From positions 1 to 64,000 of the forward strand of contig JABTUL010000004.1 of NCBI GenBank assembly GCA_015075425.1: 64,000 bases of DNA, in the 5' to 3' direction. Under the pieces are notes generated by a model. That model was not told where the DNA came from. It worked only from the letters and a program-made list of their open reading frames with translations, and made no database searches. Position 1 is the first letter of the stretch, and every line of letters starts with the position of its first letter. The DNA is from Spirochaetales bacterium. GTDB lineage: Bacteria > Spirochaetota > Leptospiria > Leptospirales > Leptonemataceae. A program made the position numbers and the translations under genes. Below are positions 43,812-60,579 of this stretch, one piece after another.

Positions 43812-44948
43812 ATGTCCGTCTCGATTTTTGAAAGCCAGAATGCTGCAGATTTGGCCTCACGATTGCTCGCCAGGAAAGACGATGCCGGGCTGGCCCTGAT
43901 TTTTTTTGGCGCAGAGTTTGATTACAAAGCCCTTTTTGCCGGGCTGAACGGCTCCGCCCTGCCATTCATCGGCTGCATGGATACCGGTCGGCTTTGCAAT
44001 GATAACTACAACCTGACGGAAACGCACGCAACTGCCATGGTCCTGCCGCGCAGCATGATTGAAGCGCTGGAGATTTTCACCTACGATATGCGACCGGAAT
44101 TGGGCTACACCGCCATCCGCGAGGCGTCCGCCAATTTATTCAGGAATGCATTAAATAAATTAAATATTAACGAAAAGGATCCCGACTTGAGCAGGGTATT
44201 CGCCATCAATCTGGTGTTCGGGCTCATGTCTGCCAATCCCGTCCTTGAAGGACAAAATCGGGTCAGTCTCTTTTTTCAGACCGTTGGAGGCAGCTCCGGG
44301 GGCAAGCTGGACTTCAAGGCCGCACCGGTGATCTCCAGTCGCGGCATGGGACCTCTGGGAGCCACCGCAGTTGTGCGCCTGGCCCGGGGCTATTCTTATG
44401 TTACGGGACTCACCTCAAGTTTTGAAAAAACAGAACACAAACTCAAGGTCACACGCCTGGCCGGCCCGCGGCACATTCTGGAATTCAATGGCCAGCCGGC
44501 CGCTGCGGAGTACGCACGGATTCTGGGCCTCAGTCCGGGGGATCTCTCACCCAATACCTACGCTACTTACACTCTGGGACTTGATACCGGAGACGGCGAA
44601 CGGCTCATTACCAGCATCCAGCAGGGGGACAACCAGGGCGGTCTTCTGACCTATAACGATGTCAATGCCGATATCACTTTTACTGTCTACCGGGCTACCT
44701 CCCAGCTGGAACCGCGAAAATCGCGCCTTTCTGAGCTTTCGTCGCAAAAGGTGGCCGCCTTCCTCTCCTTTGACTGTGTACTCTGCTACCTGGCTCGCAA
44801 TCAGCAGCAGGAAATCCAGACTATTGCCAGCAATTATGCGGCCATTCTACCCGGAGTCCCCAAAATCGGCTTTGGTACTTTTTCAGAGAATTATTGCGGG
44901 GCCAACGTAAATCAAACAGAGACCTTTCTGGCCATTCTGGAAGACTGA
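43812..44948 (+). CDS. Stand-alone FIST-domain protein
   Basis: FIST domains are sensory modules usually found next to signal-transduction outputs and proposed to bind small ligands such as amino acids. This 378-residue protein has a FIST_N part (IFFGAEFDYKALFAGLNGSA, then FIGCMDTGR, then ITGLTSSFEKT-like strands) and a C-terminal FIST_C part (TYTLGLDTGDGERLITSIQ, and FSFDCVLCYLARNQQQEIQ). There is no kinase, GGDEF or MCP domain, so partners must relay the signal. ATG 43812 follows AGGAAAGG. The upstream 81-residue gene is a possible partner. Confidence 0.82.
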   Translation: MSVSIFESQNAADLASRLLARKDDAGLALIFFGAEFDYKALFAGLNGSALPFIGCMDTGRLCNDNYNLTETHATAMVLPRSMIEALEIFTYDMRPELGYTAIREASANLFRNALNKLNINEKDPDLSRVFAINLVFGLMSANPVLEGQNRVSLFFQTVGGSSGGKLDFKAAPVISSRGMGPLGATAVVRLARGYSYVTGLTSSFEKTEHKLKVTRLAGPRHILEFNGQPAAAEYARILGLSPGDLSPNTYATYTLGLDTGDGERLITSIQQGDNQGGLLTYNDVNADITFTVYRATSQLEPRKSRLSELSSQKVAAFLSFDCVLCYLARNQQQEIQTIASNYAAILPGVPKIGFGTFSENYCGANVNQTETFLAILED

Positions 44949-51116: not shown

Positions 51117-51953
51117 ATGATATCGCTGGTGAGACATTTAAAATTGCGGGCTTACGAAGCGTTGCAGATATTCAGAAGTTCTCTGGAAATTCAAAGAGCA
51201 CTCTTCCTGAGTAAAATTCTTGAAAGCCACCCGTCAATTTCTCTAAATCGTTTTGAAAGCCGGGTCTACTCCCAGAACGGAGAAGACGGGATTCTTATAG
51301 AAATTTTCCGCAGAATCGGGATGAAAGATCAGACCTTTGTGGAGTTTGGAGTTGGTGATGGCCTTGAGAATAATACAGTACGGCTGCTGTTATCCGGATG
51401 GAAAGGCTGGTGGATCGAGGGCTCACGAACACTTTTTGCTAAGATTGAAATGCAGTTTGAAGAACACATTACGGCCGGATCCCTGAAAGCGAGCTCCCAT
51501 TTCATTACCAGAGACAACATTAAAGATATTTTTATGTCTCAAGGCATTCCCAATGAGATCGATCTCCTTTCCATAGACATTGATGGGAATGACTACTGGA
51601 TCTGGCGGGTACTTGATTTTATGCGGCCCCGGGTCATCGTGATTGAATACAACGCATCGCTCGGACCCTCCGATTCACTGGCCATTAATTATGATGAAAA
51701 ACACACCTGGGATGGCAGCAACTATTTCAGCGCCAGCCTCAAAGCGTATGAACGGCTCGGCAAAGAACGCGGCTACTCCCTTGTGGCCTGCGACCTCACC
51801 GGAACCAATGCCTTTTTTGTCAGAGAGGATCTGTGTTCCGATCAATTCCAGGGCCCATTCACCTCGGAAACCCATTTCCAACCGTTTCGTCCATTTCTGC
51901 GCGGAAGAGGAATGGGGTATCGTGGAACGCTCAAGTCGTTTGCCAGGGTTTGA
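51117..51953 (+). CDS. FkbM-like methyltransferase or related SAM-binding protein
   Basis: The 278-residue protein has VYSQNGEDGILIEIF and VEFGVGDGLENNTVRLLL, then a GWKGWWIEGS strand, and LLSIDIDGNDYWIW (D-I-D-G-N-D). This is the pattern of an FkbM-like group often found in capsule and O-antigen clusters. AAGGA lies before ATG 51117. It probably methylates or otherwise modifies a sugar; that is an inference from family and context. Confidence 0.7.
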   Translation: MISLVRHLKLRAYEALQIFRSSLEIQRALFLSKILESHPSISLNRFESRVYSQNGEDGILIEIFRRIGMKDQTFVEFGVGDGLENNTVRLLLSGWKGWWIEGSRTLFAKIEMQFEEHITAGSLKASSHFITRDNIKDIFMSQGIPNEIDLLSIDIDGNDYWIWRVLDFMRPRVIVIEYNASLGPSDSLAINYDEKHTWDGSNYFSASLKAYERLGKERGYSLVACDLTGTNAFFVREDLCSDQFQGPFTSETHFQPFRPFLRGRGMGYRGTLKSFARV

Positions 51954-51977: not shown

Positions 51978-53567
51978 ATGCTACAGGCTTCAAATTCTCT
52001 TCCTTCCATCGTTGTCGGGTCCGGTCCGGCAAGCGCGGCAGCCATTGAGGCACTTTGCAAAGCGGGAGAGCCGGTCCTCGTCGTTGACGCTGGACTGGAT
52101 CTGGAACCTGAATACGCAGCCCTGAAAGTTCGCCTTGCAGCGCAGGATCCGGCAGACTGGGATCCCCTTGACCTTGAGCGATGGAAGGGCCACGGAAGGG
52201 GAACAAGTATCCGGGGCGTGGACAGTAAAACGGCTTCTGGTTCAAACTTCGCAAACGAGGTACCAGCGGAAGCCCGACCTCAGAAGATGATCCGTGCCAG
52301 AATGGCTCGCTCCTATAGCCTTGGCGGTTTGAGCAATGTCTGGGGGGCAAGCATTCTACCTCATCACCCTGAAGATCTCAGCGATTGGCCTGTTCCTTTT
52401 TCAGAACTTCAGGCAAGCTACCAGGCTGTTCTGGATTTCCTCCCTCAGGCAGCCTGGCCAGATTCTATGACCGGACTCTTCCTGCCTGAGGGAGATGTCA
52501 GCAAAGGATTGAAGGCCGGCGCACAGATACAGAAAATATTGGAAAATCTGGAGAAAAAAAAAGACGAACTTGCTCGGGACGGGATATTCTTCGGGCAATC
52601 ACGCCTTGCTGTGGATAATCGGAACAATAGTTGTCGCTACTGCGGCCTGTGTATGTACGGCTGCCCTTATGACTTGATTTACTCCAGCCGCCAGACTCTC
52701 GAGAAATGGAACCAGGGTGGCGTTGATTACCGGCCAGGCCACCTGGTTCATTCCTTTCGCGAAGAAGGGTTGAAAGTTCTGGTCCAGGGTACGCTGTTGA
52801 ACAGCGGGAAACCGTTTCAGTATGAAGGCAAACGTTTGTATTTAGGGGCCGGCGTCCTGGAGACGGCCCGGATAACACTGCAATCTTTCCAACTGAAGGA
52901 AGTTGAATGGCCGCTACGGCACAGCGATATATTTCTAATGCCAGTGCTCCAGTACAGGAGGACAAAGGGCGCAATGAATGAAAGCGCACACCAGCTAACA
53001 CAACTATTCCTCGAACTCCGCGACCGGGCCACCTGTGATCGGTTCGTGCATCTACAATTGTACGGCTATAATGATTTGTATCGGCAGGCTCTGGAAAGGC
53101 TGCTCGGACCTCTTTATCTTCCGCTCCAGGGAGTGGCAGCCGCTTTCCTTGAACGATTGCTCATGGTTTTTGGCTATATTCATTCCGATGACAGCTCACA
53201 CCTGACATTCAAGTTAAACGCGAACTCACCTGGAACGATGCTGGTACAGGGGTATAAAAACAACAGCGCTCGCAAAATCGCCCGGCGGATACGTACCAGA
53301 ATGCTGAGCCTGCGCCGTGAACTCGGCGGCATACCACTCTGGCCTCGACTGGGTCTGCCCGGCTATGGAAATCACTCTGGCTGCAGTTTTCCCATGTCCA
53401 GGAGTCCGGGAGAAAAGCAGTCAGACATTCTGGGCCGGCCCATGGGGCTAAAGCGGGTCCACCTCATTGATGCCAGCAGTTTGCCCTCTCTTCCGGCTAC
53501 CACCATTACTCTGACGGTAATGGCCAACGCACATCGCATTGCCAGCGCAGCGGCCAGAATAGAATAG
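51978..53567 (+). CDS. GMC-family FAD oxidoreductase with CxxCxxCxxxCP motif
   Basis: GMC flavoenzymes oxidise primary or secondary alcohols. The 529-residue protein has the FAD-binding motif VVGSGPASAAAIEAL near the N terminus and GGLSNVWGAS for the flavin. C-terminal HSGCSFPM and HLIDASSLPSLPATTITLT, the GMC C-terminal block, are complete. In the middle C219-RYC-GLC-MYGC229-P forms CX2CX2CX3CP, known from the long GMC branch and compatible with an iron-sulfur cluster. It sits just before an aminotransferase and an acetyltransferase gene. Confidence 0.85.
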   Translation: MLQASNSLPSIVVGSGPASAAAIEALCKAGEPVLVVDAGLDLEPEYAALKVRLAAQDPADWDPLDLERWKGHGRGTSIRGVDSKTASGSNFANEVPAEARPQKMIRARMARSYSLGGLSNVWGASILPHHPEDLSDWPVPFSELQASYQAVLDFLPQAAWPDSMTGLFLPEGDVSKGLKAGAQIQKILENLEKKKDELARDGIFFGQSRLAVDNRNNSCRYCGLCMYGCPYDLIYSSRQTLEKWNQGGVDYRPGHLVHSFREEGLKVLVQGTLLNSGKPFQYEGKRLYLGAGVLETARITLQSFQLKEVEWPLRHSDIFLMPVLQYRRTKGAMNESAHQLTQLFLELRDRATCDRFVHLQLYGYNDLYRQALERLLGPLYLPLQGVAAAFLERLLMVFGYIHSDDSSHLTFKLNANSPGTMLVQGYKNNSARKIARRIRTRMLSLRRELGGIPLWPRLGLPGYGNHSGCSFPMSRSPGEKQSDILGRPMGLKRVHLIDASSLPSLPATTITLTVMANAHRIASAAARIE

Positions 53568-53598
53568 GTTTCAAGAGGTCTTTCCCGGAGAAAATTTT

Positions 53599-54849
53599 AT
53601 GCTGCCTTTATTGCCACAGGCTCGTTTCAGAATTTACACTACTTTTTATAGCTATACACAGGGAATTCGAGCCCTGATCGGTGGTAGCGTCCACAGCCAG
53701 GATCTGGCCAATTTACAGGAGGCTCTAAAGAAGCGATTCTCTACCCGGTATGCGATACTTGTTCCCCAGTGCAGAGTGGGTATCTATCTGACTTTTAAAC
53801 ACCTTATAAAGCCCGGCCAGAAGGTCTTGATGTCCCCGTATACCATCGTTGATATAAGCAATATGGTCCTCCTTGCTGGAGGCCTTCCTGATTACGTGGA
53901 TGTGGAATTAGGGACTTGCAATATCTCGGCAGATGAGGTGGAAGAAAGAATCGGTCCGGACACCGGTGCTGTACTCATTACCCATTTGCACGGTCTGGCT
54001 GCGGAAGCGGACCGGATCCGCGCTGCCTGTGACCGATACAATGTCCCCCTGATCGAAGATTGTGCCCAGGCATTTGGTACAGTATGGCGGGATAAGCCGG
54101 TGGGCACCTTCGGGAAGGCGGGTATTTTTAGCTTTGGCATGTACAAAAACGTAAACGCCTGGACCGGGGGTGCTATTATCACTGACGATGCGGAGCTGGC
54201 TCAGAAAATCAATAAGGAACTGGCGCAATTCACGGGTTCCCCCCGAAGCATGCTAAGAAAGAAACTACAGGCCGGTATTCTTTCGGACATTCTGACCCAC
54301 CCGATTATTTTCAAATTATTTACTTTCTGGATTTTTCGCTTTGCCTTTTTAAATGATATTGAATTTATCAATAAGAAAGTCCGCATTGAGCTGGATGCCA
54401 GCCGGCGGCTCGAATTCCCGGATTACTACAGGTTTCCATTCACGGCGCCGCAGGCCAGATTGGTACTGCGGCAACTGGACAGAGTTGATTCATTCAGCAC
54501 GAATCGCATGAAGAAAGGCCTGCTCTACCATGAAGGCCTCAACGATATCAAGGAAATCATTATTCCGCCGGCACGATCCGATCTTTCCCATACCTACACC
54601 TACTTCCCTATCCAGTACCACGACCGTAACACACTCATCAAATTCCTGATGAAACATTGCCGTGACCTGGCCGCCCAGCACTACAAGAACAATGCAGACC
54701 TGGAAGAATTTAAAGATTTCTTCCAGGATTGCCCCGCGGCTCGCTCTGTAGCAAGCCAGCTGATCTTCTTGCCCACCTATCCCACCTACTCCGTGAGACA
54801 GGTTGAGCGGAATATCCGGCTGATCAGACGGTTCTTCGGGAAAGATTAA
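53599..54849 (+). CDS. DegT/DnrJ/EryC1-type sugar aminotransferase
   Basis: Fold-type I PLP enzymes of this family transaminate ketosugars to amino sugars. The 416-residue protein has ILVPQCRVGI in the N-terminal loop, IEDCAQAFG with the PLP-binding Asp, and the Schiff-base lysine K183 in FGMYKNVNAWTGG. The position and sequence around the lysine differ from the usual SxHxxK form, which may reflect an uncommon substrate. It follows the GMC oxidoreductase (31-bp gap) and precedes the GNAT gene by 6 bp. Confidence 0.88.
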   Translation: MLPLLPQARFRIYTTFYSYTQGIRALIGGSVHSQDLANLQEALKKRFSTRYAILVPQCRVGIYLTFKHLIKPGQKVLMSPYTIVDISNMVLLAGGLPDYVDVELGTCNISADEVEERIGPDTGAVLITHLHGLAAEADRIRAACDRYNVPLIEDCAQAFGTVWRDKPVGTFGKAGIFSFGMYKNVNAWTGGAIITDDAELAQKINKELAQFTGSPRSMLRKKLQAGILSDILTHPIIFKLFTFWIFRFAFLNDIEFINKKVRIELDASRRLEFPDYYRFPFTAPQARLVLRQLDRVDSFSTNRMKKGLLYHEGLNDIKEIIIPPARSDLSHTYTYFPIQYHDRNTLIKFLMKHCRDLAAQHYKNNADLEEFKDFFQDCPAARSVASQLIFLPTYPTYSVRQVERNIRLIRRFFGKD

Positions 54850-54855
54850 GAAACG

Positions 54856-55491
54856 GTGGAAGATGCAGAAATCCACAAAAGCCTTGACTCCATTGCCCTG
54901 AAGGAGCTGGCATCTCTTCACAGGAGCGCACTGCCTGACTCCCTGCTTTCATTGCTTGGTCGGCGGGCCATCCAGAGTTACTATCAATTTGTGTCTGCCT
55001 CACCTTCAGAATCCTTGATTCTGGTCGGGAGTTCACCAATTCTTGGTTGCTGTGTTCTGTCATTTGCGCCAGCGACTCTGATGGGACGCTTTCTGCGCAG
55101 CAATCCGTGGCGGCACGGGCTATTTGCTATACTCTCGTTGGTCCAGGCCAAGGCCTTTACACGGATGATCCGCACCCTGTTCCATTTCCGGGATACTTTC
55201 CCTGGGGAAATGGAATCTCTACCGGAAGTTGTGCAGCTTTTTGTGGCCGGGGAATCCCGATCTTCGGGAATCGGATACCGATTGCTAAAAAAAGCAGAGG
55301 AACAACTCCATCAGAGAGGAGCAGGCGGTTATTTCGTTAAAACTCAGACAGAAGCAGGAAACCGGGCCATCGGCTTTTATAAAAAGAATGGCTTCACTCT
55401 CCGGGGGGAAGTGTTTCTTCAGGGGCAACACTTCCAGATCCTGGCAAAGGACCTGGAAGGATTGGGCCGGCCCAGGCGGCCAGCACCATGA
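54856..55491 (+). CDS. GNAT-family N-acetyltransferase
   Basis: The 211-residue protein begins at GTG 54856, 6 bp after the aminotransferase stop. The acetyl-CoA-binding turn reads ESRSSGIGYRLLKKAE (R/Q-xx-G-x-G/A), followed by FVKTQTEAGNRAIGFYKKNGF, a typical GNAT C-terminal strand. With the aminotransferase before it, acetylation of a new amino group is likely. The 3' end overlaps the convergent membrane glycosyltransferase by 98 bp. Confidence 0.85.
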   Translation: MEDAEIHKSLDSIALKELASLHRSALPDSLLSLLGRRAIQSYYQFVSASPSESLILVGSSPILGCCVLSFAPATLMGRFLRSNPWRHGLFAILSLVQAKAFTRMIRTLFHFRDTFPGEMESLPEVVQLFVAGESRSSGIGYRLLKKAEEQLHQRGAGGYFVKTQTEAGNRAIGFYKKNGFTLRGEVFLQGQHFQILAKDLEGLGRPRRPAP

Positions 55492-56749
55492 GCAAATGAG
55501 CAAGCACCAGGATGTCCGTGTAGAAAGAGTAGCGCAGCATCAGTGCATTCATTGTCCCGGAAACCAGGTAATTAAAGCCATGTAGAGCAAGAGCACCAAG
55601 TAAGCTCAATGCTAGCAGATCGCTGCTGCGCCAGAACGAAAGGAGTGCCAGGAGACCGGCACAGCACAGGAGCAGCGGATAGGTGAGGCCGCCCATGATG
55701 AAAATGATGGACCCCAGAACCAGTCGGGCGTGCTCTTTGTAGTATTTTTTATATAAAATGATTCCTATTCTCCAGAGTCGTTCATTTAAAAAGCGAACCT
55801 TCTCCGGCTGAAGGCTGAATAAGTCCGTCCCGTCCAGAAGATCCAGCTCCGCCAGGTAGGCTGCATACGTTCCTCTGTAGCAGACGTGGTTCCAGTTATC
55901 CAGGTAATGCATGGAATGACGCAAAAAATTCGGAGCCTGATTGTATTCTATTAACCACTGACCGGTCCGCAGACGATTGTGGACCTCTATAAAGTAATGA
56001 CGATCTTCCTCAGGGAAAAGCCCGGAATCGCTCTCCCGGGCCAGGTAGAATAACGGCGTGGTAAATTGCAGACCGGTCACGGGCCTTGCCTCCAGAGATC
56101 TGTGGCGTATATAGTTATAGGCACCTTCCAGAGAGCGACCCAACACCACTGGCAGAAGGAAAGCCAGAAAAACGATGGGCAGGACGCGGAAACGGCCGGA
56201 TCGCAGAACCCACAGGCCAACCGGCAGGAGTGCCGCGATGAAGAAAAGCATCTGCGGCCTGGTCAGGATAGCCAGCAGCCAAAAAACCATCGCAAGGGCG
56301 AGCATTTGCAACTTCCCTCTGAGAAAAAATAGTAAAAGGGCTGACCAGAAGAGGAGGAGCAGGCCGTAAGCCAGTGACTCGGTCAAAATCGCAGAACCAA
56401 TTCCGCGGGCACCGAGCAAGGGCAAATTCAAAACGATGAACAGGATCGCCTGAAGCAGCGGCGGCAAAACCAATGTACGCCATAAAACCCGGATCAGGAC
56501 AGAGCTTGCAGCAAGAACGAAAATGGTTTGAAAGAATACGGCAATGAAAAGGCCCGATTTATCCGGCCAGATAGCAGTGACAGCCAGCCACAAAGGATAC
56601 AGCGGCGGCCTGCCCATAACACCCTGCAAATAGCCTGCACTGTCTGGAGATAAAACCGGCCCGCGTAGAAGACTCTCCAGGAGAAAGGCGCAAAAGAATG
56701 CGCAGAAAAACAGGGGTAAAGCTATCCTGCCCGTCACAACCCCACGCAT
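55394..56749 (-). CDS. Multi-pass membrane protein, GT39/ArnT-like glycosyltransferase candidate
   Basis: The protein has about 10 hydrophobic segments. After TM1 comes an extracytoplasmic loop with LSPDSAGYLQ, an Asp-containing motif like that of dolichol/undecaprenyl-phosphate-sugar dependent GT-C enzymes. A long middle loop (about residues 220-320) follows. ATG 56749 (MRGVVTGR) gives 451 residues; the frame continues upstream to 56770. It uses lipid-linked sugars if the family call is right, for which the GT2 at 56817 could supply the donor. It converges with the GNAT gene (98-bp overlap). Confidence 0.65.
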   Translation of the reverse strand: MRGVVTGRIALPLFFCAFFCAFLLESLLRGPVLSPDSAGYLQGVMGRPPLYPLWLAVTAIWPDKSGLFIAVFFQTIFVLAASSVLIRVLWRTLVLPPLLQAILFIVLNLPLLGARGIGSAILTESLAYGLLLLFWSALLLFFLRGKLQMLALAMVFWLLAILTRPQMLFFIAALLPVGLWVLRSGRFRVLPIVFLAFLLPVVLGRSLEGAYNYIRHRSLEARPVTGLQFTTPLFYLARESDSGLFPEEDRHYFIEVHNRLRTGQWLIEYNQAPNFLRHSMHYLDNWNHVCYRGTYAAYLAELDLLDGTDLFSLQPEKVRFLNERLWRIGIILYKKYYKEHARLVLGSIIFIMGGLTYPLLLCCAGLLALLSFWRSSDLLALSLLGALALHGFNYLVSGTMNALMLRYSFYTDILVLAHLLMVLAAWAGPILPGPLPGSGSVAPEETLPPGE

Positions 56750-56816
56750 TTCTTTCGGAATCCGTGGCAAGCTTTTTCAGGCAGACAGGGGAAAAACCCT
56801 CTAAACAGCTGACCGC

Positions 56817-57722
56817 ATGATGGCCTCCCGGCAGTGCAGCATAGTCATCCCGGCTCTCGATGAGGAAAAAGGAATCGGAGAAACCTTGAAGTCCATCCGC
56901 GCCACAGAAGAAGCAAACAGCCTGGAAATAGAAATCGTAGTGATTGACGATGGATCCATCGATCAAACCGGCGAAATCGCCAGGGGCCTTGGTGCTACTG
57001 TCGTCCGCCACCCGTCACCGGCAGGGTATGGCCATTCCTTGAAGGATGGCATCCGTGCGGCTCGATTTGACACCATAATCATTACAGATGCTGATGGCAC
57101 ATACCCACTGGACCAGATACCGGCATTGCTGACTCGCTACCAGCAAGGTTTTGACATGGTTGTGGGAGCCAGAACGGGATCGGAATACCGCGAATCGGTG
57201 CTCAAGCTCCCGCTGCGTTTCATACTGAAGTGGCTGGTAGAGTTTACAACGGGCCGGAAAATTCCCGATATCAACTCAGGATTTCGCATCTTTTCCAGGG
57301 CCACCGCCTTAAATCATTTGGACCGGCTTTGCAATACATTCAGTTTCACCACCGGTATGACTCTGGCCTATATGCTGACCGGAAGGTTTGTCGATTACAT
57401 CCCTATCGCCTATCATAAGCGCAAGGGGAAGTCCAAAGTTCGCCTTTTCCGCGACTCGCTAAGAACGATGCAATACATCGTGGATGCTATCCTTTTCTAC
57501 AATCCTATAAAACTTTTTATTGTCTATGCGATGAGCCTCGCACTGCTTTTTCTCTGCTTCCTGGGTCTCTACCTGTACACGGATCATTTCTTCTTTGCCG
57601 GGCTGGCCCTTGCCTGCTTCGGACTGATTTTCTTTATCCTGGCGCTGGGGCTCATTTCCGGAATGCTGCGCCAATTCTTTCTGCCCGGGGGCAGCTTACC
57701 CCGTAACTCTGCCGGGCAATGA
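56817..57722 (+). CDS. Polyprenyl-phosphate glycosyltransferase, DPM1/GtrB-like GT2
   Basis: The 301-residue protein has VIPALDEEKGIGETL, VIDDGSIDQTGE and the DxD motif ITDADGTYP. It then has KIPDINSGFRIFSR and two C-terminal transmembrane helices, the layout of enzymes making undecaprenyl- or dolichyl-phosphate sugars. It probably makes the lipid-linked sugar donor for a GT-C enzyme such as the neighbouring 55394 product. Start 56817 is divergent from that gene. It overlaps the next gene by four bases (ATGA). Confidence 0.88.
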   Translation: MMASRQCSIVIPALDEEKGIGETLKSIRATEEANSLEIEIVVIDDGSIDQTGEIARGLGATVVRHPSPAGYGHSLKDGIRAARFDTIIITDADGTYPLDQIPALLTRYQQGFDMVVGARTGSEYRESVLKLPLRFILKWLVEFTTGRKIPDINSGFRIFSRATALNHLDRLCNTFSFTTGMTLAYMLTGRFVDYIPIAYHKRKGKSKVRLFRDSLRTMQYIVDAILFYNPIKLFIVYAMSLALLFLCFLGLYLYTDHFFFAGLALACFGLIFFILALGLISGMLRQFFLPGGSLPRNSAGQ

Positions 57723-58714
57723 ATCTGATCGGTGCGGACAGGAAGCGATACGCCGGCCAACTGCTGGGGCTCCTCACCAGCACCATAGCTCTTGCTTTTT
57801 TCATTTATGCCTTTGACCTGGAAGATCTAAAAAAAATTGTCAGTCAGCTGGATCCGTACTCTGTCCCTCTCGCCGTCTTCTGGCTCCTCGCCTTCAACAG
57901 CATTTTCGCATTACGCTGGTATTTTATTCTCAATCATCGTTTGAGTATTGCTTCCAGTCTCTACGCGGTTTTTATGGGCATAGGAGCGAATATGTTCCTT
58001 CCGGCCCGGGGCGGAGACGTGCTGCGCGTGGCCTATTCGCATCGCGCCGGTCCCGTTCCCCTGCCCTTACTGGCCGGAGGCGTCTTTGTGGAGAAGCTAC
58101 TGGACCTGGTTGCCGTTGCTTGCCTGGCCTTTCTGGCTCTTTTTCTCAATTCCGGTATTCGTGACTACCTTCCTGTGCAACAGCTTGTGTTGCTACCTTC
58201 TGTGATGATCCTGACGCTCCTCTTAGTGTTCTTGCTGATTGCGTGGAAACAGGATTTGCCCGACCGGCTGCTGAAATTGCTCAAGCGCGTTCCCCTGCTG
58301 TCGGGAATTTTGCCGGCTTCTTTGGGGCAGACATTCGTCGATGCACGGGAACTGTTTCGACCTTTGAATATCTTTCTCGCCGCTTTCGCGACCACCTTCT
58401 TATGGTTTCTTTCTTACCCACTGGCTTATTTTCTGGCGGGCCGGCTGCTGGGTGCCGACCTGCCCTACTCCCACCTGGTCGTCATTACGATCGCCGGGGC
58501 TCTGGGCGTTGCCCTTCCCGCTGTCCCTTCGGGCCTGGGGGTCTTGCATGCCTCGCTTATCTCTGCTTTTCTGCTTCTGGGACGATCCGCAGCAGATGGC
58601 CTCGCTTACGCAACGACGGTCCATTTACTCTGGTTTCTGGTGTTTGGTTCGATAGGTATGCTCCTGTATTTTCGCTGGGCTCTTCTGCGCCGCAGAAGCG
58701 CGGAGCCCCGCTGA
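57719..58714 (+). CDS. Flippase-like membrane protein, AglD/YbhN (LPG synthase TM) family
   Basis: The 331-residue protein has about eight transmembrane segments and the family motifs GIGANMFLPARGGDVLRV and VPSGLGVLHASL. These proteins, typified by the membrane half of lysyl-phosphatidylglycerol synthase and AglD, are commonly encoded beside polyprenyl glycosyltransferases and thought to move lipid-linked sugars. Its ATGA overlap with the GT2 gene before it supports a functional pair. It shares one base with the asnB start (TGATG). Confidence 0.82.
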   Translation: MNLIGADRKRYAGQLLGLLTSTIALAFFIYAFDLEDLKKIVSQLDPYSVPLAVFWLLAFNSIFALRWYFILNHRLSIASSLYAVFMGIGANMFLPARGGDVLRVAYSHRAGPVPLPLLAGGVFVEKLLDLVAVACLAFLALFLNSGIRDYLPVQQLVLLPSVMILTLLLVFLLIAWKQDLPDRLLKLLKRVPLLSGILPASLGQTFVDARELFRPLNIFLAAFATTFLWFLSYPLAYFLAGRLLGADLPYSHLVVITIAGALGVALPAVPSGLGVLHASLISAFLLLGRSAADGLAYATTVHLLWFLVFGSIGMLLYFRWALLRRRSAEPR

Positions 58715-60579
58715 TGTGCGGGATAGCGGGCTTTCAAGGCCCGTTGAATACAACTGCTCTGGACCGCATGACGGATCAAATGATCCTGCGCGGGCCAGAT
58801 GGTCGGGGCACTTTTGTAGATGCGGAGTCAGGTTTGCATCTGGGTCATCGTCGCCTTTCCATCCTGGATCATGCGGGCGGCCACCAGCCTTTATGGAGCA
58901 GGGATGGCCAGCTGGCTGTCATTTTCAATGGCGAAATCTACAACCACGGGCCCCTCCGTTCTGAACTGGAGGCCCTGGGCCATGTATTCCGGACGGACCA
59001 TTCCGATACAGAAGTCCTGCTTTATGGCTACAGGCAATGGGGGGAGGATTTTGTAAAAAAATTGAACGGAATGTGGGCGTTTGCTCTTTTCGACAGAGCC
59101 AGAAGACAGTTGCTTCTGTCGCGGGATCGATTCGGAAAAAAACCGCTCTACTACTACGCTTCCCCGGGACTCTTTGCCTTTGCATCCCAGCTCGATGCGC
59201 TGACCCGACATCCAGGCGTGGACCGTCAGGTGAGTCGGACCTCATTACTTAAATACTTTGCTTACGGATACATTCCGGCTCCCGGGAGCATCTATTTAAA
59301 CATTTATAAACTTCCTGGAGGCCATTCGCTCTGTTTGAATCTGGATACCGGTGCAAGGCGCACATGGGCCTACTGGACCCACCGGATTGAGCCGGAGCCA
59401 CTGCGGCGGGGTCAGACCATTCAGAGCCTCGCGGGTGAATTGGAAAGCCTGATCGAGGAAGCGGTCCGCACCCGCCTTGTGGCCGACGTTCCCGTCGGTA
59501 TCTTCCTCAGCGGAGGACTGGATTCTTCAGCGGTGGCTGCCATGGCCCGCCGGCATATCAACGATTTACACACCTTCTGCATTGGATTTACGGAAAGTAC
59601 CTATGACGAAAGCCCTTTTGCCGCCGCGGTCGCAGAACACCTGGGGACCAGCCACCACCTCCGCATTCTGGATGGGAAGGAACTGGGCCTGATTCGCCAG
59701 ACGATCGTATCCGGCCTGGATGAGCCGATGGGTGACAGCTCCCTGCTGCCAACCTGCCTGCTCAGCGCTTTTGCCCGCGAGTCCGTAACTGTGGCCCTGG
59801 GCGGTGACGGAGGCGACGAACTCTTCGCCGGATACGATACCTTCCGAGCCCTGCGGCCAACAGAAATGGTAGAACGCTGGATTCCAGGACCGATCCACAC
59901 GGCAATACGCAAACTCGTCAATATCCTGCCCACCTCCAGGCGCAGCATGAATTTCCTTTTTCGGTTGCGTCGTTTCCTCCGGGGGCTGGCTTTCCCGTCT
60001 GCGTATCGTGCTCCCGTATGGCAGGCAACGGTAGAACCTGAAGAACTGGCCGACTTGCTTGATGGTCCGGTAGATCTGGAAGAAGTCTTCGCGGAGGCTA
60101 TCGAGTGCTGGCAGGAGTCTGCCAATCTTGATGAACCCTTGCGTCTTATGCAATTCTATACAAAAATCTATATGCAGGATTCCGTACTCACCAAAGTAGA
60201 TCGGGCCAGCATGCTCAACTCCCTCGAAGTACGCGCTCCCCTTCTGGATGTAAACGTAGTGGATTTCGTGCGCAAGCTGCCCTATGATTTACGCTTTCGT
60301 GCCGGGAGGGGGAAATTCCTCCTCAAAGAAGCCTTTCGTACCGCACTGCCCGCAGCCATCGTAGATAGATCCAAAAAAGGTTTTGCCAGTCCCGTCTCCG
60401 CCTGGTTTTACTCGGGGGAGCTGGCTCTGGATCAGCCGTCTCCTCTGCTAAACCGGCCTGCTGTGGATAGATTCCTGCGGACTCATAGAGCAGGTCGGGC
60501 CGACTATGGGCAGGCTCTCTGGAATATGTATTTGCTGAATGCCTGGCTTGCTCGCGAAGGCCCCCTGCGGAAAGACTAA
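58714..60579 (+). CDS. asnB: Asparagine synthetase-like glutamine amidotransferase (AsnB family)
   Basis: The open frame begins far upstream at 58243, but Cys2 must follow the initiator, and MCGIAGFQG starts at ATG 58714, giving 621 residues. Domains: N-terminal nucleophile glutaminase (C2, GHRRLSI, FNGEIYN, SDTEVLLY), then the synthetase domain with the PP-loop FLSGGLDSSAVAA and ALGGDGGDELFAGY. In capsule and O-antigen clusters such proteins often transfer amide nitrogen to uronic-acid sugars rather than aspartate; that is my reading here. Its stop interlocks with the wzx stop (CTAA). Confidence 0.9.
   Translation: MCGIAGFQGPLNTTALDRMTDQMILRGPDGRGTFVDAESGLHLGHRRLSILDHAGGHQPLWSRDGQLAVIFNGEIYNHGPLRSELEALGHVFRTDHSDTEVLLYGYRQWGEDFVKKLNGMWAFALFDRARRQLLLSRDRFGKKPLYYYASPGLFAFASQLDALTRHPGVDRQVSRTSLLKYFAYGYIPAPGSIYLNIYKLPGGHSLCLNLDTGARRTWAYWTHRIEPEPLRRGQTIQSLAGELESLIEEAVRTRLVADVPVGIFLSGGLDSSAVAAMARRHINDLHTFCIGFTESTYDESPFAAAVAEHLGTSHHLRILDGKELGLIRQTIVSGLDEPMGDSSLLPTCLLSAFARESVTVALGGDGGDELFAGYDTFRALRPTEMVERWIPGPIHTAIRKLVNILPTSRRSMNFLFRLRRFLRGLAFPSAYRAPVWQATVEPEELADLLDGPVDLEEVFAEAIECWQESANLDEPLRLMQFYTKIYMQDSVLTKVDRASMLNSLEVRAPLLDVNVVDFVRKLPYDLRFRAGRGKFLLKEAFRTALPAAIVDRSKKGFASPVSAWFYSGELALDQPSPLLNRPAVDRFLRTHRAGRADYGQALWNMYLLNAWLAREGPLRKD

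Follow-up and report, generated by a model that had tools for sequence, protein, structure and literature searches.

A stretch of 64,000 nucleotides from a Spirochaetales bacterium (contig JABTUL010000004.1 of assembly GCA_015075425.1, positions 1 to 64,000; hereafter the window) carries, within a glycan gene cluster, the genes of a GMC-fold flavin adenine dinucleotide (FAD) dehydrogenase, a pyridoxal phosphate (PLP) aminotransferase of the DegT/DnrJ/EryC1/StrS fold (hereafter DegT) and a GNAT-fold N-acetyltransferase (Table 1). The genome belongs to Spirochaetota and is 4.13 Mb in size. As the initial annotation had described, the three genes are adjacent on the plus strand in the order GMC, DegT, GNAT, and are separated by 31 and 6 bases in the list of open reading frames (ORFs). 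The association of this DegT subfamily with GMC genes is well past chance expectation: all five assessable high-scoring DegT loci found independently of GMC had an adjoining GMC gene. We propose that the trio would install an acetamido group on a lipid-linked sugar. The coupling of oxidation and amination is by itself rather probable, and for the complete route the balance tips slightly in favour.

A GMC alignment used to scan 84,980 genomes recovered 80 loci (L009-L088), the gene contents of which were taken from six-frame hidden Markov model searches; partner counts are given over 81 loci including the window. The commonest form was a GMC gene followed by a gene encoding an extended short-chain dehydrogenase/reductase (SDR) protein, often with an AglJ-like polyprenyl-phosphate glycosyltransferase (for example L028:335-2810 and L029:8688-12399). 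The partner of GMC was an SDR in 59 of the 81 loci and a DegT of this subfamily in eight, and never both; neither was found in 14 loci, several of which were at contig ends. The SDR reductase, and not the aminotransferase of the first reading, is the usual partner of this GMC protein.

Partner exchange was also seen in the GMC phylogeny. The tree of 82 rows required seven partner changes, at least three of them forced by well-supported branches, and after removal of six divergent or long-branch rows there were five changes, one of them forced. On the reduced row set, the approximately unbiased test rejected a single clade of DegT-partnered GMC proteins (p 0.00124, lnL difference 81). Between the window and Hydrococcus rivularis, the DegT proteins were 60% identical and the GMC proteins 37%, which fits a separate exchange of the DegT gene. 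Since reductase and aminotransferase were repeatedly exchanged beside one dehydrogenase, a shared ketone is the simplest chemical reason, and a keto intermediate that is either reduced (giving an epimer) or aminated (giving an amino sugar) accounts best for the swap. The GMC-SDR locus looks like a widespread two-enzyme epimerase, by analogy with DprE1/DprE2.

The DegT subfamily adjoined a GMC gene in Spirochaetota, Acidobacteriota, Myxococcota, Cyanobacteriota and Alphaproteobacteria, and in Acidobacteriota a homologous GNAT accompanied the pair. Searches with DegT alone showed that its members are rare, being present in 2 of the 292 genomes from the phylum to which Hydrococcus belongs, 6 of 347 Acidobacteriota, 3 of 296 genomes from the phylum of the window and 3 of 237 from the Myxococcota group. 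Six DegT matches above 500 bits had not been found through GMC; the five with enough flanking sequence (L105, L106, L107, L110, L113) all had the GMC neighbour, and the sixth (L109), beginning 124 bases from a contig end, kept DegT and GNAT together. No GMC gene was found adjoining the lower-scoring relatives (263-273 bits: L108, L112, L114), which are probably a different subfamily. In the cyanobacterial genome G470 (L105:5513-8651) the neighbour of the DegT gene was a GMC gene from a different subfamily that lacks the Cys motif, so DegT seems to require oxidation by a GMC enzyme and not one particular GMC protein.

The complete trio was present in the window, in L015/L116, where GMC is divergent from GNAT-DegT, and in L110 (PPGT-GMC-DegT-GNAT), where it lies directly behind a polyprenyl-phosphate GT2 glycosyltransferase gene. 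The trio is therefore kept together elsewhere, contrary to the outcome that would have refuted the initial annotation. L109 kept the DegT-GNAT pair, GMC-DegT pairs occurred in further phyla, and L074 had the order DegT-GMC-GNAT with a divergent, weakly related GNAT. A relative from the window's own family (L111) had GMC, DegT, a polytopic protein and a flippase-like protein. In a second spirochaete metagenome-assembled genome, a class-level relative of the window, the DegT gene adjoining GMC is itself split into two overlapping frames, by a frameshift, an assembly error or decay (L075:8683-9977 / L002:3075-4369; L075 is the same contig as L002/L007). Phage records gave no GMC match. Among plasmid records, the only GMC matches were distant relatives from glycan loci of Rhizobium and Azospirillum: that of a Rhizobium leguminosarum plasmid (L006) has genes for a GHMP kinase and for a sugar-nucleotide-binding protein as neighbours, and that of a plasmid of Azospirillum sp. 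B510 (L005) adjoins a GT9 gene. The plasmid search with DegT returned generic sugar aminotransferases only.

By sequence profile, the window GMC protein is a divergent member of its superfamily. The Pfam search matched GMC_oxred_C alone (E = 2e-4, 22.4 bits against a gathering cut-off of 24.6), and GMC_oxred_N was not found. The AlphaFold model (pLDDT 93.4) clearly has the GMC fold, with its FAD-binding Rossmann domain and C-terminal substrate domain. Its best structural match was the FAD glucose dehydrogenase of Burkholderia cepacia (BcGDH, 6a2u; VIA Z 33.0, root-mean-square deviation 3.2, 470 aligned residues, 17% identity), followed by fructose dehydrogenase (Z about 31) and then pyranose 2-oxidases; cholesterol oxidase was also among the matches, the majority of which were sugar dehydrogenases and oxidases. 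The glycines G14 and G16 of the nucleotide-binding motif were invariant among homologs, as was His466 (58/58).

All four cysteines of the CxxCxxCxxxCP motif were retained in 55 of 58 GMC homologs. In the phmmer alignment C225 and C229 fall on Cys218 and Cys222 of BcGDH, whose 3Fe-4S cluster is liganded by Cys212, Cys218 and Cys222 (PMC6719666). The initial annotation had regarded the motif as unusual for a GMC protein acting on a sugar; this idea was dropped after the alignment, because the Fe-S cluster of BcGDH occupies the corresponding position (PMC6719666). The motif, a probable Fe-S cluster site with this precedent, suggests that electrons would leave FAD through an Fe-S centre and not pass to oxygen or NAD(P). 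No hitchhiker or multihaem cytochrome subunit genes were present among the window neighbours with a family match. No signal peptide is apparent in the GMC sequence, so the enzyme is read as cytoplasmic.

The DegT protein matched its Pfam family with E = 1.2e-51 (176 bits against a cut-off of 19.8), and the PLP lysine K183 was invariant in the subfamily alignment. It scored far below the cut-off of every listed NCBIfam named equivalog (WecE, ArnB, PseC and others), the best being PRK11706 with 129.7 bits against 375. The structures closest to its model were sugar aminotransferases (7b0d, Z 38.6; ArnB, QdtB and WbpE, Z 36-37), which made up most of the structural matches; AHBA synthase was also on the list. 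Relative to ArnB and 7b0d, the phmmer alignments showed about 42-54 extra residues around positions 209-275, in which the model has helices at 215-232 and 235-252 and where the most hydrophobic 19-mer of the whole protein begins at residue 236. The GNAT protein matched Acetyltransf_1 and Acetyltransf_7 above the cut-offs (E = 2e-8; bit scores of 35 for a cut-off of 27 and 34.8 for one of 20.7) and was 29-37% identical to the GNATs adjoining the same DegT subfamily in L015, L109 and L110 of Acidobacteriota.

From these genes, their conservation, the partner exchange and the folds, we infer the catalytic steps, that the substrate is a sugar, that a lipid carries it and how the steps are ordered relative to flipping. 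The GMC enzyme, with FAD and a probable Fe-S cluster, would dehydrogenate a ring hydroxyl to a ketone with an electron acceptor other than NAD(P), DegT would aminate the ketone with PLP, and GNAT would acetylate the new amine. The initially suggested sequence of oxidation, transamination and N-acetylation stands as the best reading. The substrate would most likely be a sugar that the GT2 glycosyltransferase downstream of the trio had placed on polyprenyl phosphate; the modified lipid-linked sugar may then be flipped by the flippase-like protein and transferred by a membrane glycosyltransferase, for which the polytopic protein is the candidate. Elsewhere, the same GMC and an SDR reductase would together act as an epimerase of two enzymes, as DprE1 and DprE2 do. 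A general scheme of modular sugar editing on polyprenyl phosphate, in which a cytoplasmic Fe-S GMC enzyme produces a keto-sugar lipid that SDR turns into an epimer and DegT with GNAT into an acetamido sugar, is more tentative, and we place it somewhat short of an even balance.

The carrier was judged from gene neighbourhoods and from the DegT insert. In 27 of the 82 loci, a polyprenyl-phosphate GT2 gene was no more than 500 bp from GMC or from its partner. Over all loci, the density of these genes was 0.73 per 10 kb up to 3 kb from GMC and 0.08 at more than 6 kb, a nine-fold difference; for polytopic membrane proteins the densities were 1.68 and 0.64 per 10 kb. This enrichment, the layout of L111 and the hydrophobic insert favour a polyprenyl-phosphate sugar over a nucleotide sugar. 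Such genes are frequent in glycan clusters, and for this reason we retain, as unlikely but worth weighing, identical chemistry on a UDP- or dTDP-linked sugar: a route like WlbA/WbpE/WbpD with GMC replacing the NAD-dependent dehydrogenase, and a product used by cytoplasmic GT4 or GT2 enzymes. The DegT fold relatives of known substrate are mostly nucleotide-sugar enzymes, and the cluster holds glycosyltransferases of cytoplasmic type and a CapD-type dehydratase, which agrees with that route; the enrichment at GMC loci speaks against it, as does the lack of the hydrophobic insert in the aligned nucleotide-sugar aminotransferases. For a lipid-linked sugar as the substrate, we consider the case evenly balanced.

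It is improbable that GMC oxidises a non-sugar alcohol (a lipid, sterol-like compound or polyol) on which DegT and GNAT form an N-acyl amine. Both families do take in non-sugar enzymes, as the matches to cholesterol oxidase and AHBA synthase show, and the hydrophobic segments are compatible with a lipid; but glucose and fructose dehydrogenases and then pyranose oxidases head the GMC matches, sugar aminotransferases dominate those of DegT, and the loci are glycan loci. It is very improbable that a mosaic cluster has brought together three genes with no relation to each other: genes are shuffled in glycan clusters and GNAT is present in only part of the loci, but DegT and GMC adjoin each other repeatedly in at least five phyla, their GMC proteins are not monophyletic, and a homologous GNAT occurs in both Spirochaetota and Acidobacteriota loci. 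A chance neighbourhood was ruled out by the recurrence across several phyla together with the tree tests.

Several points weigh against the acetamido route on a lipid-linked sugar. No GNAT is beside the GMC-DegT pairs of L042, L106, L107 and L011. The position of Asn519, the second catalytic residue of BcGDH, is Thr509 in the window GMC protein (T in 44 of 58 homologs, N in 4), so its chemistry may differ from the textbook. The DegT model is of moderate confidence in the insert (pLDDT about 52-76). Glycan clusters often contain polyprenyl-phosphate GT2 genes, which means that adjacency alone is no proof of a lipid-linked substrate, and in the window GNAT and GT2 are separated by 1.3 kb holding the opposite-strand membrane-protein gene.

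Table 1. Coordinates of the trio, its sequence features and the neighbouring genes in the window.
Feature	Position	Strand	Basis or remark
Unknown-family gene just upstream of GMC, SQNGEDG motif	51117-51953	+	No Pfam or NCBIfam match
GMC-fold FAD dehydrogenase	51978-53567	+	ORF, 529 aa; proposed oxidation of sugar hydroxyl to ketone
CxxCxxCxxxCP motif (C219, C222, C225, C229, P230), probable Fe-S cluster site	52632-52667	+	Homolog conservation, BcGDH alignment
DegT/DnrJ/EryC1/StrS-fold PLP aminotransferase, distinct subfamily	53599-54849	+	ORF, 416 aa; Pfam
Codon of PLP-binding Lys183	54145-54147	+	Invariant in subfamily alignment
DegT hydrophobic helical insert, residues ~209-275	54223-54423	+	Candidate membrane- or lipid-contacting element
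GNAT-fold N-acetyltransferase	54856-55491	+	ORF, 211 aa, GTG start; Pfam Acetyltransf_7/1
Polytopic membrane protein, candidate GT-C-like glycosyltransferase (putative)	55394-56770	-	No Pfam or NCBIfam match; at least 7 predicted transmembrane segments
GT2, polyprenyl/dolichyl-phosphate glycosyltransferase type	56817-57722	+	NCBIfam profiles below cut-offs
LPG_synthase_TM / flippase-like membrane protein	57719-58714	+	Pfam PF03706, E 8e-41; TIGR00374

Upstream of the trio are genes for a CapD-type dehydratase, GT2 and GT4 glycosyltransferases and a methyltransferase. Downstream, the minus-strand membrane-protein gene overlaps the 3' end of GNAT tail-to-tail by 98 bases (55394-55491); analogous polytopic neighbours in L080 and L106 match PMT_2. 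The best NCBIfam profiles of the following GT2 protein were AglJ (104 bits), dolichyl-phosphate hexose transferase, PpgS and the ArnC-type PRK10714, all below cut-off, and the one close member of its subfamily found in the genome was the window copy itself. Further along, an asparagine-synthase-like protein (58711-60576) had the XrtA/PEP-CTERM amidotransferase as its best NCBIfam profile (512 bits against a cut-off of 817). A FIST-domain protein encoded at 43812-44948 was weakly NosP-like (111 bits against 450).

If the proposed route is true, amino sugars and rare epimers of surface glycans could be made on a membrane carrier rather than on nucleotides, by an oxidation without NAD(P). It would account for glycan clusters which have no nucleotide-sugar dehydrogenase for their aminotransferase, and would extend the DprE1/DprE2 idea, a major mycobacterial drug-target pair, to a second flavoprotein fold. 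Replacement of SDR by DegT should then turn an epimerase into an amino-sugar synthase. The literature searches turned up nothing relevant on GMC with an aminotransferase in glycan synthesis, which is weak evidence of absence as subscription papers were outside their scope.

Several known systems share parts of this logic. BcGDH and the fructose dehydrogenase of Gluconobacter have in common with the window protein the GMC fold and the Fe-S Cys cluster site (PMC6719666). They differ in being multi-subunit enzymes with a multihaem cytochrome, which oxidise free sugars for respiration and work without an aminotransferase. In mycobacteria, DprE1 and DprE2 act as oxidase and reductase on decaprenyl-phosphoryl-ribose (PMC11127046). 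This 2'-epimerase is alike in pairing a flavoprotein with a second enzyme that works on the keto form of a polyprenyl-phosphate sugar, a logic shared by the GMC-SDR loci, whereas the window has an aminotransferase and GNAT where the reductase sits there. DprE1 is a VAO-type flavoprotein and not a GMC protein, and DprE2 is a classical SDR.

In aminoglycoside antibiotic biosynthesis, a 6'-dehydrogenase followed by a PLP aminotransferase turns a sugar hydroxyl into an amine, and AprQ is FAD-dependent (PMC5461906). KanQ/KanB and AprQ, likened to the window by this reaction logic of dehydrogenase then aminotransferase, differ in acting on the primary C6' alcohol of free pseudo-oligosaccharides in antibiotic clusters. 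The Wlb/Wbp routes share their product type with the window trio, and WbpE and QdtB are structural matches of its DegT. In the routes of WlbA (MviM-type), WbpE-WlbC and WbpD-WlbB and of QdtB/QdtC, a keto sugar is processed by a DegT aminotransferase and an N-acetyltransferase, but the first step is NAD-dependent (or an isomerisation by QdtA), the substrate is nucleotide-linked and the acetyltransferase is a hexapeptide-repeat protein, not a GNAT. We know of no system in which a GNAT and a DegT of this subfamily are combined with an Fe-S dehydrogenase of the GMC type. The modular scheme of sugar editing on polyprenyl phosphate, if true, would be to our knowledge the first route aminating a sugar directly on its lipid carrier, present in many phyla and using a flavoprotein fold other than that of DprE1.

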